From assembly GCA_018814025.1 (NCBI GenBank), contig JAHJAM010000007.1:1-32602 (forward strand): 32,602 nt of DNA, written 5' to 3'. Position 1 is the first letter of the stretch. Each line of letters begins with the position of its first letter. Made by a program: the position numbers and the translations under genes. Below the pieces are notes generated by a model. It had not been told where the DNA came from and made no database searches. It saw only the letters and a list, made by a program, of their open reading frames with translations. This document shows, one piece after another, positions 1,267 to 5,527 of this stretch. Source of the DNA: Patescibacteria group bacterium. GTDB lineage: Bacteria; Patescibacteriota; Patescibacteriia; UBA9934; GWF2-40-263.

Positions 1267-1572
1267 ATGGGCGAGAAAAAGAGGCCCAAGCGGCCGCGGC
1301 CGGCCAAGCGCCGAACGCTGCCGCCGGATGCCAAGTCTTTGGTCGAGATGATCGGGACTCTCTCCTGCAAGCTGGCCCGCAAGGCTGAGCATCTGCAGCG
1401 GGAGGCGCACGACTACAAGTCGCGCAGCGGTTTTCGGATTATGTTTGAGCAGCGGGCCGCGGCTTTCCGCCGTTTGGCCGAGCTGGACGCGGCGCAAGCC
1501 GCGGAGCTGGCCGAGGCTCTGGGATTCCAGATCGACGCTACACTTCACGACCTGACCCCGGAGGCAAAATGA
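1267..1572 (+). CDS. Small basic helical protein coupled to Cas12-like effector
   Basis: I do not recognise this 101-residue protein. Its first 16 residues are highly basic and proline-rich (KKRPKRPRPAKRR), suggesting nucleic-acid contact. The rest (about 20-90) is predicted helical and alanine-, leucine- and arginine-rich, ending in an acidic helix. GAGGTG stands 4 nt before the ATG. The stop overlaps the start of the next gene as ATGA, so translation is coupled and the two products are probably made in similar amounts. This and the shared GC-rich composition suggest it works with the Cas12-like protein, as a subunit, RNA chaperone or regulator. It might also be a detached N-terminal piece of an ancestral larger effector. 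No enzyme motif is visible. Confidence 0.75.
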   Translation: MGEKKRPKRPRPAKRRTLPPDAKSLVEMIGTLSCKLARKAEHLQREAHDYKSRSGFRIMFEQRAAAFRRLAELDAAQAAELAEALGFQIDATLHDLTPEAK

Positions 1573-3539
1573 GTTGGTACAACGAGTCCGCGGCCGGCGA
1601 TCAAACCGGTTATGTGGTGGTGGAAGCCAAGCTGGGCGCTTCGCGTGCTAACAAGCCGCTTCCCACTTGGAAGCGTCAGGTACTCGCGCGGCTTTCGGCC
1701 ATGGTGAGCAATGCCCTGCGGCAGACCATGCAGATGATCGAAAGGTCGCTGACTGTGGTCATGGAGAACGAGAAGTTTGAGACCCAGACGGTGGCCGGAG
1801 TGTGGCGGCCTGATGGCGCATGGTTCGTGCGGAGCGCGGCGCTTAAGTTCCGGGTCAATCCGGAGCAGGCCGAGCGTATCCGCAACCTGCTCGCGCAGGA
1901 AGCCAAGCCCTACGGCTACACCAATGCCTATCGCTTCACGGGTCTGGATCAGGATGCAGAGGGTTTTATCGCTTTGGCCGAGATTGCCAAAGGCGAGTGG
2001 AACGAGAAGAACGGTAAACGGCGCCATGTGCTGTCCGTGATTCAGTCCACGACCGGGTTGCAGCAGCTAATTGCGACTTATCTGCAGCCGCCATTTCTGA
2101 TGGCCCTGCCGCGCGCTTTGCGCGCGGGCGTGGCTCAGGAAGCGGCCCAGCAGACCACGAGTTATCTGGGTCAGCTGGATTCGGCTAAGGTCAAGGGTGA
2201 GACGGCTTTTCCAACCATGGAGGACCGCGACCCGGAGCGCCGCCAGGCCGCCTATAACTCGGCTTTTGAAGCGCTGATCGCGGATGTCCGACCGCTTAAC
2301 CATTGCCGAGCTCGTGATAAGGATCCGGGCAAGTATAAGCCGGATGACCCGCGCGGCGATCGACTGATCGTGGATGACGAACGCTGGTTCGCGGTTACGA
2401 CCACGCCGGATCCGCATCCGATTCCGCTGTTTTTCGTGAAAGGCGATTCGGTGCGGGTGGAGTTGACTGAGCTCTCTTTCCCGGTCGGGGTTTCCAAGAA
2501 GAACCGGCACCGTGGACGACTTGCGCCGAGCGAGCGCGTGCTCGCGGATCGGCCCGAGCGTGTACGCGCCAAGGGTGACACCAAGGCGCGGATGTTTTCG
2601 GCCTTGCTGCCGGTGCTGGATACGCAGGACGAGGAAATTGTCCGAATCCTGGCTGAGCGCGATCAGCGCAAGCAGGAGTCCAAGAGCCAGGGCCGGCAGA
2701 TGGCTGGCGACAAGATCACTTTGCCGCTGGTCGGATCGGTGAAGAATCGAGACACGGATTTGCGCCTGCCCATGAGCTTTGACCGCGCGCGCTTCGAGCG
2801 TCTGTTGTCGCGGAATGATCTGCAGGTGGCCTGGGCGCGGCTAGTCAACAAGCGTGGGGACTGGTTTATCCAGCTCACCTTGCGCGTGCCTTACGCCAAA
2901 CCGCAGGGTTTGCGCCGCGTGCTGGGTGTTTCCTTCGGCCTCAACGCGATCATGAGCTGGTCGCTTCTGGACGAGGCCGGCCAGACTATCGAAGCGGGTG
3001 CGCTCGCGCCCAATCCCCAGATCAAGGCCTTTCTTGACCGCAAACTCAACCTGGAATGGGATCAAGCCAAGGGGCGCTGGGTGGGCGGCAAAAGCTTTGA
3101 TCGGGAATTGGAGAGCATTGCTCATCGCGTGGCCAACCAAGCCGTGGAGCTGGCGCGCACACATCAGGCCGTGCTCTGCGCCCATGACATCCAGTGGGTG
3201 GCCAAGTCCGGGCCGGATTCCAAGTTGAACGTCCTATTCACGGCTTGGAACTACGGGCAGATGCGCCGCTACCTCGAGTACAAGGCGCCGCTCTCCGGTC
3301 TGGGTGTTCCTTTGTTTACGGGTGATTACATCGTCCGCATGACCTGTCCCCAGTGCGGCGCGATTCGTGAGGCTAAAGAAAAGCCGGAAACGGCTAAGAC
3401 CTGGCGCACCAATGGCGTGTTGCATTGCCGGGCGTGCGGGTTCGAAGGCGAACTCACAGGCGCGCAGGACGCAAAGCGTGTGGCCGAGCATGGTCTTGGT
3501 CTGGCACGCAAAGCGTGGGCCAAGGAGAAGGTCGAATAG
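1569..3539 (+). CDS. Cas12-like effector with degenerate RuvC site (candidate new type V subtype)
   Basis: This 656-residue protein has the C-terminal architecture shared by Cas12 and TnpB. A beta-rich WED-like end (about 370-447) is followed by RuvC-I around VLGVSFGLN (451-459), RuvC-II around VLCAHDIQW (535-543), a four-cysteine zinc finger (C593, C596, C620, C623) and RuvC-III around residues 628-645. In active members RuvC-I carries Asp, RuvC-II Glu and RuvC-III Asp. By my alignment these positions are S455, H539 and G631; D540 and D634 lie close by but out of register. The frame is open, and the TnpB-like fold signals on both sides of each change are good, so a sequencing error is unlikely. 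The N-terminal 370 residues would be the REC part; I see no known family there. Length is near that of Cas12k and Cas12m, which also bind rather than cut DNA. GGAGG precedes the start. The GC-rich composition suggests transfer. Confidence 0.8.
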   Translation: MSWYNESAAGDQTGYVVVEAKLGASRANKPLPTWKRQVLARLSAMVSNALRQTMQMIERSLTVVMENEKFETQTVAGVWRPDGAWFVRSAALKFRVNPEQAERIRNLLAQEAKPYGYTNAYRFTGLDQDAEGFIALAEIAKGEWNEKNGKRRHVLSVIQSTTGLQQLIATYLQPPFLMALPRALRAGVAQEAAQQTTSYLGQLDSAKVKGETAFPTMEDRDPERRQAAYNSAFEALIADVRPLNHCRARDKDPGKYKPDDPRGDRLIVDDERWFAVTTTPDPHPIPLFFVKGDSVRVELTELSFPVGVSKKNRHRGRLAPSERVLADRPERVRAKGDTKARMFSALLPVLDTQDEEIVRILAERDQRKQESKSQGRQMAGDKITLPLVGSVKNRDTDLRLPMSFDRARFERLLSRNDLQVAWARLVNKRGDWFIQLTLRVPYAKPQGLRRVLGVSFGLNAIMSWSLLDEAGQTIEAGALAPNPQIKAFLDRKLNLEWDQAKGRWVGGKSFDRELESIAHRVANQAVELARTHQAVLCAHDIQWVAKSGPDSKLNVLFTAWNYGQMRRYLEYKAPLSGLGVPLFTGDYIVRMTCPQCGAIREAKEKPETAKTWRTNGVLHCRACGFEGELTGAQDAKRVAEHGLGLARKAWAKEKVE

Positions 3540-3696: not shown

Positions 3697-3948
3697 ACCT
3701 GGCCCTCGAGGAGGTAGTGGCCTTCGGGACACTTGGCCTCATCTCCGGGGGAAAACTCCGTTCCGCTTCGGCGGGATTGAAGAGCCGCGCTCTTCGTTGT
3801 TCTTTTCAGGATTTGACCGTTTGGCCGGAATTGACCCTCCAAGGCCGGGTAGTAAAGAAAAGCCCTAAAAAGGCACTCCAAAAATTCTTTGCTACTTTTC
3901 AGCACTTGTGTCCGGGAAACTGGGCTGAACAAAGCTGAAAAAACAACA
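3697..3948 (+). repeat. CRISPR leader, copy 2
   Basis: This 252-bp copy matches positions 1-263 except that it lacks the 11 nt at 131-141. It ends exactly at the first repeat of array 2. Upstream of 3697 the shared boundary cannot be set because copy 1 begins at the window edge. It contains the same GAAGAGC/GCTCTTC hairpin and repeat-complementary segment. A 143-residue minus-strand frame crosses it, but I do not consider that coding. Confidence 0.8.
3790..3819 (+). ncRNA. Candidate anti-repeat (tracrRNA-like), leader copy 2
   Basis: TTTGACCG at 3812-3819 is the exact complement of the repeat's first 8 nt, and GGA at 3809-3811 complements its TCC after a 2-nt bulge. TTGTT at 3796-3800 complements AACAA of the array 2 repeat, and CTC at 3790-3792 its GAG. 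A second, shorter repeat-complementary stretch (CCGGAATTGACC) is at 3825-3836. It lies on the same predicted transcript as array 2, 130 nt upstream of the first repeat, so pairing in cis would form a natural single-guide-like fold. Known tracrRNA-dependent type V effectors include Cas12b, Cas12e, Cas12f and Cas12k. Confidence 0.55.
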
Positions 3949-4090
3949 CGGTCAAAAATCCGGAAAAACAAGGAGTGGTCACTGTGGCTTCTTCTTGGCC
4001 AACCACGCGCTTCCGGTCAAAAATCCGGAAAAACAAGGAGTGGTCACTGAGCGAGATTAAAAAAGCCGAACGCTTTTCGGTCAAAAATCC
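3949..4090 (+). CRISPR. CRISPR array 2: two full repeats, two spacers, truncated end repeat
   Basis: Identical 34-nt repeats lie at 3949-3982 and 4014-4047. They begin CGGTCAAAAATCCGG and end CAAGGAGTGGTCAC. A third copy at 4078-4090 keeps 13 nt. Spacers are 3983-4013 (31 nt) and 4048-4077 (30 nt). Layout and repeat length equal those of array 1, but the repeats agree at only 25 of 34 positions, mainly the first ten and last five. The 3' end (AGTGGTCAC) resembles, from memory, the GAAGTGGCAC end of Cas12b repeats, which would place the spacer on the 3' side of the handle. That is typical of type V. Confidence 0.87.
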
Positions 4091-4108: not shown

Positions 4109-4133
4109 ACAGTCCCAATCGGGGCTGTTTTTT
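4109..4133 (+). terminator. Terminator of CRISPR array 2 transcript
   Basis: ACAGTCCC (4109-4116) pairs with GGGGCTGT (4121-4128) with one G-T wobble and a 4-nt loop, followed by T residues. It lies 19 nt after the truncated last repeat, and its T tract overlaps the stop codon of the convergent gene. Confidence 0.8.
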
Positions 4134-4377
4134 ATTCCGTATACAATTCAACCAACCGCCATTCCAATAATTCCGTATCTAGGCGCAGTTTGAAAAAATT
4201 AGTCTCATCGCTCACGGAAAAGAAGAAGAGGCGTTTGGCCCCTTCGGTGGCGGTGTGAATTAAATTTACCTGCTTGATTTCATACTCCCGTTGATCCCAG
4301 CGCAGTTTCTTTGGTCGAACACGATTATCGGAAAAGGAAACTATGACATCAACGGGATCATTAAGGAGTTGATGCAT
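4132..4377 (-). CDS. Conserved small hypothetical protein
   Basis: This 81-residue protein has no named function that I know. It is mostly beta-strand by pattern (VDVIVSF, EYEIKQVNLIH, KRLFFFSVS, FFKLRLD, EWRLVELY), consistent with a small barrel-like domain. Proteins of this style, with an RPKKLRW-type segment followed by a conserved FFFSVSDE-type strand, recur as unnamed proteins in Patescibacteria, from memory. It begins 3 nt after the stop of the 53-residue gene upstream, so the two form an operon. Its stop abuts the array 2 terminator, marking the boundary between CRISPR locus and chromosome. Confidence 0.7.
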   Translation of the reverse strand: MHQLLNDPVDVIVSFSDNRVRPKKLRWDQREYEIKQVNLIHTATEGAKRLFFFSVSDETNFFKLRLDTELLEWRLVELYTE

Positions 4378-4730: not shown

Positions 4731-4759
4731 TTGACCCCGGCCAGACCTTTTCTTATAAT
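4731..4759 (+). promoter_or_regulatory. Strong promoter of a candidate small RNA
   Basis: TTGACC at 4731-4736, a 17-bp spacer and a perfect TATAAT at 4754-4759 predict a start near 4766. No coding frame follows before the terminator. A weaker TTGACA box also lies upstream at 4698-4703. Confidence 0.75.
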
Positions 4760-4764
4760 TAAAG

Positions 4765-4857
4765 AACCGTATCGCGAACAGAATCGTCTGTTAGCGTGAA
4801 CCGGTATCTGCGAAAAACACTGTATATGTCTTGCCGGACGAGCAGTGTTTTTCTTTT
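4765..4857 (+). ncRNA. Candidate structured small RNA
   Basis: The predicted transcript of about 93 nt has two stem-loops. The first is nested: ACCG (4766-4769) with CGGT (4802-4805), CGC (4773-4775) with GCG (4794-4796), and AACAGA (4777-4782) with TCTGTT (4787-4792) around an ATCG loop. The second is a perfect 10-bp terminator, AAAAACACTG (4813-4822) with CAGTGTTTTT (4843-4852), followed by more T. It has no reading frame of note. It resembles no RNA class I can name; the size and strong promoter fit a stand-alone regulatory RNA. It is convergent with lexA. Confidence 0.6.
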
Positions 4858-4909
4858 TGCTAGTGATAGATCGGGTGATCCCATTCCTGACCTATCCTCG
4901 GCGTGAGAT

Positions 4910-5527
4910 TTAAACCGGTTGAAATTTGCGAATTACGGCCCTGACCACTCCTTGGACTATGCAGTCCTTCACATAGATTGGATCCATGGTGGAGTTGGCG
5001 GGTTGGAGGCGGATTTGGTTCGATTCGCGATAAAATCGTTTCAGGGTAGCAAAAGCATTATCCAAAAGGGCCACGATGACTTCGCCGTTTTTGGGCGAGG
5101 GGTTGCGTTCGATAACCACATAGTCGCCGTCGAGAATCCCGTCTTCGATCATGGACTGGCCTTTCACGCGCAGAACGAATGAGTTGGCGCCGTCGATGAC
5201 GAATTCGGTGGGCACGGCCATGGTTTCATTTTGTTCCACGGCCTCGATGGGTTCACCGGCCGTAATGAGGCCGGCTAAGGGCAGGAGAATGGATGGGGTG
5301 GCGGGCTGGGCTTCGGCAGTTAATTCCACGGAGCGAGCCTCGCCATCTTCACCCATGGTGAGGAAGCCTTTTTCCGTCAGGGTTTTAATGTGCTGGTGCA
5401 CGGTGGCCGGGGAGGAAAGGCTGAAGTGGTCCGCGATTTCGCGGTAGCTGGGCGCATAACCGTGGTCCGTGATGTATTCACGAATGAAGTCCAGGATCTC
5501 GGCTTGCTTTTTGGTTAAGGTAGGCAT
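4910..5527 (-). CDS. lexA: LexA SOS-response repressor
   Basis: This 205-residue protein has the LexA layout. A winged helix-turn-helix covers about 1-65 (YAPSYREIADHFSLSSPATVH) and an S24 self-cleavage domain about 85-200. The scissile bond is A90-G91 in ITAGEP, the nucleophile S125 in KGQSMIEDGI and the general base K163 in ATLKRF. LexA represses DNA-damage genes until RecA-stimulated autocleavage. Length matches the family. It stands alone with its own promoter. An inverted GTTCG/CGAAC site overlaps the predicted -10, indicating autoregulation. All key residues are present. Confidence 0.95.
   Translation of the reverse strand: MPTLTKKQAEILDFIREYITDHGYAPSYREIADHFSLSSPATVHQHIKTLTEKGFLTMGEDGEARSVELTAEAQPATPSILLPLAGLITAGEPIEAVEQNETMAVPTEFVIDGANSFVLRVKGQSMIEDGILDGDYVVIERNPSPKNGEVIVALLDNAFATLKRFYRESNQIRLQPANSTMDPIYVKDCIVQGVVRAVIRKFQPV

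Follow-up and report, generated by a model that had tools for sequence, protein, structure and literature searches.

IstR-1/tisB and SymR/symE are SOS-linked antisense RNAs of Escherichia coli, and GadY, from the same organism, lies between gadX and gadW. In PMC5415839, GadY is listed as cis-encoded with induced cleavage and as Hfq-requiring. The RNA considered here, predicted in a window of 32,602 nucleotides (the whole stretch of DNA analysed, contig C56), resembles GadY in being about 100 nt long, in having its own promoter, and in lying antisense in the gap of a presumed operon, convergent with the upstream gene. It differs from GadY in that a sequence-invariant apical hairpin is kept in the Uhrbacteria RNA, and no sequence relation between the two was found (no Rfam match). 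It appears most GadY-like in layout and is not a member by sequence. With IstR-1/tisB and SymR/symE it shares the layout of a small antisense RNA beside apparently SOS-controlled genes, with a promoter of its own that lacks a LexA box. However, the Uhrbacteria RNA starts 27 to 275 nt upstream of a small open reading frame (smORF) and leaves the smORF start uncovered (distances from 10 homologs, with G006, G007, and G017 left out). The smORF is found downstream of lexA, on the lexA strand, in all 13 genomes that carry the RNA (bearers) and in 14 of the 16 non-bearers examined; since it is kept in the latter, a role as a toxin that needs the small RNA as its antitoxin seems unlikely.

The RNA also resembles the bacterial intergenic RNAs with an intrinsic terminator that are collected in Rfam, but it matches none of these families. 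The initial annotation had been able to assign it to no known RNA class, in agreement with our search of Rfam release 15, which gave zero matches at gathering scores and, up to an E-value of 10, one chance match elsewhere and nothing plausible. In the open-access literature, we found neither a description of this RNA nor any paper on an Uhrbacteria small RNA. The SOS network of Patescibacteria has reportedly been studied by Sanchez-Osuna, Barbe and Erill in 2017, and to our knowledge small RNAs have seldom been reported from these bacteria. With its covariation, fixed promoter, and strict link to lexA, this locus allows RNA control of the DNA-damage response to be tested in tiny uncultured bacteria, a lineage with very small genomes; a covariance model (R2) fit for deposition is now at hand. 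The element is very probably a real, previously undescribed regulatory RNA.

Organization of the locus

The window belongs to a genome of 978,017 bases (98.9% complete), whose nearest lexA relatives are mostly Candidatus Uhrbacteria. The features of the locus are collected in Table 1. The promoter proposed by the initial annotation matches 11 of 12 consensus letters, the two arms of the terminator stem are indeed perfectly complementary over 10 bp, with a T run directly after them, and a nested hairpin (P1 to P3) is present on the 5' side; the description of the element as stand-alone thus holds in the sense of a predicted promoter and terminator of its own. The RNA would be about 92 nt long, its ends being placed by the promoter position and the T run. 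A further hairpin (P5), absent from the initial annotation, sits in the 20 nt separating the P4 arms. In the window sequence, the fold of the whole RNA is unusual compared with chance (z-score -5.15), and P1 retains only 4 of its 6 pairs.

Table 1. Positions, in the window, of the predicted small RNA, its parts, and the neighboring genes.
Feature	Position	Strand	Remarks
Sigma-70-type promoter TTGACC-17-TATAAT	4731-4759	+	-35 TTGACC 4731-4736, -10 TATAAT 4754-4759
Small RNA (predicted)	4763-4856	+	Covariance models R1/R2; start about 4763-4767, end about 4853-4858
5' hairpin P1-P2-P3	4766-4805	+	Pairs covary; all 13 homologs have a negative fold z on the strand of the RNA
P1	4766-4769 / 4802-4805	+	ACCG/CGGT
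P2		+	TCGCG/CGTGA, between P1 and P3
P3	4777-4782 / 4787-4792	+	AACAGA/TCTGTT
Terminator hairpin P4 + T run	4813-4858	+	Covarying pairs
P4 arms	4813-4822 / 4843-4852	+	AAAAACACTG and CAGTGTTTTT, perfect 10-bp inverted repeat
T run	4853-4858	+	CTTTTT, directly 3' of P4
Apical hairpin P5	4828-4839	+	GTCTTGCCGGAC; most conserved stretch of the small RNA
lexA	4910-5527	-	TIGR00498 E 1e-56, above cut-off; Pfam S24 + LexA_DNA_bind
smORF, 53 aa	4381-4542	-	Conserved downstream of lexA
81-aa ORF	4132-4377	-	Third gene of the presumed lexA operon

Because promoter-like sites in the window's own region are no commoner than chance (3 observed against 2.9 expected from shuffles), the single genome constitutes weak evidence. 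Two rival readings are a DNA element and a tiny coding gene. The element is palindromic, and in the window the RNA begins at a GAAC-N8-GAAC pair, as might be seen in a DNA repeat, an uptake sequence, or an operator. However, GTCTTGCCGGAC has only one exact copy in the 978,017-base genome, and a DNA repeat or uptake sequence was rejected on this ground; the GAAC-N8-GAAC pair occurs in 1 of the 13 homologs, and the letters of the stems change while their pairs are kept. A DNA element of any of these kinds is thus highly improbable. The probability of a tiny coding gene is slighter still. A frame reading NTG TCT TGC CGG ACN, or M/L-SCRT, can be found in most homologs, but it is lost in G004, G016, and G018, and its synonymous sites vary no more than the remaining ones. 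As stated in the initial annotation, no ORF is contained in the element: the frames of 22 to 36 codons starting from GTG or ATG all overrun the terminator and none is conserved across the homologs, so a small peptide was rejected.

Homologs in the family and their distribution

The window's family (Uhrbacteria, Patescibacteria) was sampled with 42 genomes. A DNA search of these genomes gave matches mainly to the P4/P5 part, and the 3' sides of lexA in relatives display a matching layout antisense to lexA. Nine such sequences (alignment A2) were used to build the covariance model R1, which finds the RNA in 12 family genomes at E ≤ 2.2e-5, including G007 and G018, neither of which was in the model or had been seen before. 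A thirteenth, G017, has an E-value of 0.024 with R1 and was accepted on synteny and on its R2 score (6.4e-6), which is not independent, as R2 contains G017. The window's own genome is matched at 3.1e-13 and 3.9e-12 by R1 and R2, with the window being a row of both models. Further R1 matches in the family with E-values above 0.02 were dropped (G013, G033 twice, G034, and G036, together with second matches in G005, G018, G021, and, twice, G029).

The covariance model thus places the RNA in 13 of the 42 family genomes, distributed over genera g1, g4, g5, g6 (2/2), g10 (1/2), g11, g12, g14 (2/6), g16 (2/2), and g17 (1/2). A search of the order (72 genomes, 30 of them outside the family) yielded no accepted RNA beyond these 13: the match in G064 (E 0.002) is a terminator directly after a coding region and not the small RNA, and the match in G033 (E 0.09) was not accepted. 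In a class sample of 380 genomes, the five matches were all family members; searches of more than 40 genomes were run with stricter filters, which weak relatives may escape. A filter-free model search of the lexA loci of 17 RNA-less genomes gave nothing below E 0.19, and phage records gave zero matches.

A lexA gene was found in 38 of the 42 family genomes, and 25 of these 38 have no accepted copy of the RNA, so that the RNA is dispensable. The four others (G019, G020, G035, and G036, with G035 and G036 being 81% and 56% complete) show neither lexA nor an accepted RNA. On a LexA tree of 29 genomes, the presence of the RNA needs at least 5 changes, 3 of which are forced by well-supported branches. 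G030 was counted as a remnant: its 5' hairpin is recognizable after lexA (L128/L163), while a good -10 box and the terminator hairpin with P4 and the P5 sequence GTCTTGCCGGAC are gone. A fainter, more decayed apparent trace is seen by eye after lexA in G003 (L173). We read this as an old gene that was lost repeatedly.

Structure conservation and strand

The 13 sequences were aligned by fitting them to the R1 structure (alignment A4), a procedure biased toward that structure; 91.4% of the cells are paired in this alignment, compared with 73.6% in shuffles and 39-53% in slid versions, and changes on both sides occur at 22 of 31 pairs, compared with 13.3 ± 2.0 in shuffles. These double changes affect 8 of the 11 pairs of helix 3 of the alignment (the P4 terminator helix) and, outside the terminator, 3 of the 6 pairs of P1 and all 10 pairs of P2/P3. 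Folding each sequence individually, without the model structure, gives the two-hairpin form in 13 of 13, the first hairpin being shorter in G017 and G018. The initial annotation had named conservation of the hairpin with covariation in related genomes as a check, and the hairpin is kept with covariation in the 13 bearers, contrary to the refuting case that it had named, a hairpin not conserved in relatives.

A bidirectional terminator, or a structure in the lexA 3' UTR acting on the lexA strand with no separate RNA, would be compatible with the symmetrical P4 arms, whose A/T ends on both sides imply that lexA transcripts may end there too, and with the other lexA-strand hairpins present at the same place in RNA-less relatives. 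However, the first hairpin covaries although it lies outside the terminator, and its stability is largely a property of the RNA strand: there, all 13 sequences give z-scores between -2.87 and -5.24, against -1.62 to +0.92 on the reverse strand in 11 of 13. The exceptions are G016 (-2.13) and the window, whose 5' hairpin folds about equally well on the reverse strand (-3.36). Many of the kept pairs are G-U on the RNA strand. The promoter is also at a fixed offset, with a -10 box (TACAAT or TATAAT) starting 9 nt before position 1 of the model in 12 of 13 homologs (CGCAAT in G021). This box lies outside the covariance model. For 12 of the 13 homologs, no more than 10% of random places reach a promoter score as high as the best one found. 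Together, these observations make a terminator or 3' UTR structure without a separate RNA improbable.

We consider the conservation and covariation in 12 further genomes to be decisive for the reality of the small RNA. On this comparative evidence, we are highly confident that the element represents a new RNA family and a real gene, confined to one Uhrbacteria family, of about 92 nt, with its own promoter, a 5' hairpin, and a terminator hairpin.

Genomic context and a possible cis-acting mechanism

In all 13 bearers, the RNA lies between lexA and the smORF, antisense to the lexA strand and convergent with lexA, and 0 to 220 nt separate its end from the stop codon of lexA. The distance from the end of the RNA match to this stop is no more than about 4 nt in G004, G005, G018, and G021, so that a lexA 3' UTR, if any, must overlap the RNA. 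An 82-aa ORF follows lexA in 11 of 13 bearers (81 aa in the window). The initial annotation had placed the RNA between lexA and the CRISPR side of the window. The lexA side stands, while the CRISPR side is incidental, as the relatives have lexA, the smORF, the 82-aa ORF, and often dinB here. In the window, the CRISPR locus occupies the place that dinB has in relatives. The dinB gene codes for Pol IV (PF00817, E 9.6e-39 in L036) and lies within about 1.5 kb of lexA, which is where the loci examined end, in 5 of 13 bearers, compared with 13 of 16 non-bearers examined. In the RNA-less genomes G001 and G009, lexA and the smORF are separated by 30 and 53 nt, gaps that fit with an operon. The series lexA, smORF, 82-aa ORF, and dinB looks like an SOS operon, with co-transcription suggested by the spacing. 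The smORF codes for a small basic protein (MSTTTLRY...) kept in most family genomes examined. Neither it nor the 81/82-aa ORF has a Pfam or NCBIfam match, and the smORF is a candidate for an SOS protein of a kind not known before.

The lexA promoters of the family carry GTTC-N7-GTTC, with 31 such pairs in 36 upstream regions. None of the 13 bearers has such a pair less than 150 nt away from where the RNA starts, making LexA control of the small RNA unlikely, and the RNA is probably not SOS-induced. As the 3' end of the RNA abuts or overlaps any lexA 3' UTR and the smORF follows on the same strand, any RNA reading through from lexA would be perfectly complementary to the small RNA. In the mechanism that we favor, the small RNA would be made from its own promoter, free of LexA control, and would pair in cis with lexA-operon RNA reading through the lexA-smORF gap. 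Cleavage of the RNase III type, or polymerase collision, could then separate the lexA mRNA from the downstream genes, whose expression would be limited unless SOS induction outruns the small RNA. Cis pairing is favored by the strict synteny with lexA. Control of dinB cannot be the general purpose, because dinB is near in the minority of bearers noted above and in most of the non-bearers. Taken jointly, the identity as a small RNA and this cis-antisense mechanism have a probability of roughly 0.4 in our estimate.

A second conserved element is located on the lexA strand (window 4866-4905, minus strand), where it forms a hairpin whose apical loop contains GGGAUC(A). It follows the lexA stop in loci L148, L149, L151, L152, L157, L160, L161, and L162. 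Eight genomes without the small RNA have it in a long form, with a hairpin of some 70 nt (z -6.0 to -8.1); in 8 of the 13 bearers, GGGATC is found at the same place with at most a short hairpin. Two RNA elements thus seem to alternate at one place. That the antisense RNA in a lexA-smORF-dinB operon sets the repressor:repair ratio, alternating across the family with the sense-strand GGGAUCA-loop hairpin, is a doubtful proposition that we would hold only tentatively; it would be the first case of SOS control by a small RNA to be described in Patescibacteria.

The conserved apical hairpin

The near invariance of GUCUUGCCGGAC and of the AAAGCYGCC/GGURGU arms is not explained by pure cis pairing, in which both strands would change together. 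In P5, GUCUUGC is constant in 12 of 13 sequences, with variants of the hairpin in G017 (GUCUUGCCAGAC), G018 (GUCUUGCUGGAC), and G016 (GUCUUGCGGAC) and loss in G004, the one that departs, while the surrounding stem varies freely; the 5' arms are nearly constant too. An invariant P5 favors a constant partner. The RNA could accordingly be trans-acting or protein-binding, with the invariant apical hairpin GUCUUGCCGGAC as its working part and the adjacency to lexA merely inherited. The exact complement of the conserved 10-mer occurs 22 times in nine bearer genomes (own antisense excluded), compared with 10 times for the reversed pattern. However, among the 22 sites, 21 were readable; these are scattered, mostly within reading frames, and no gene is recognizably hit twice, so that exact 10-mer complements in 9 of the 13 bearer genomes reveal no recurrent trans target of the loop; a protein partner is therefore as likely as an RNA partner. 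A trans or protein-binding role also does not predict the strict lexA synteny in 13 of 13. We regard it as a serious possibility, with perhaps one chance in three of being correct.

The CRISPR neighborhood

In the window, a CRISPR array is about 650 bp away from the small RNA and a Cas12f-like gene 1.2 kb away, a position that could suit a tracrRNA or another RNA of the adjoining Cas12f-type locus. However, its pairing with either repeat is no better than with shuffled repeats (z +0.73 and +0.67), so the anti-repeat pairing with the crRNA repeat expected of a type V-F tracrRNA fails, whereas the repeats find far better partners in the two leader blocks (E -28.4 to -30.1, z -1.5 to -2.75). In the five bearer relatives with listed ORFs, no Cas gene was recognized by eye, and dinB or other genes take this place. 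We give a CRISPR-related function next to no credence, and the cis-antisense RNA remains our preferred reading.

The CRISPR locus has several features of its own. Two very short arrays with differing repeats (1-430 and 3698-4090) are each preceded by a near-identical leader, about 250 bp long and able to pair with the repeats. These leaders are a duplicated tracrRNA-like block flanking the Cas12f-like gene and a cas1 fragment. The Cas12f-like protein (1569-3539, plus strand; PADLOC Cas12f, E 1.7e-49) has 656 aa, which is large for the Cas12f group. Its gene is overlapped by 4 nt by a 101-aa ORF (1267-1572, plus strand) with a sub-threshold ribosomal S15-like match. At the 3' end of lexA (4942-4954), TGACCACTCCTTG is a 13-nt exact complement of the second CRISPR repeat, probably by chance since it encodes the conserved LexA residues QGVVR.
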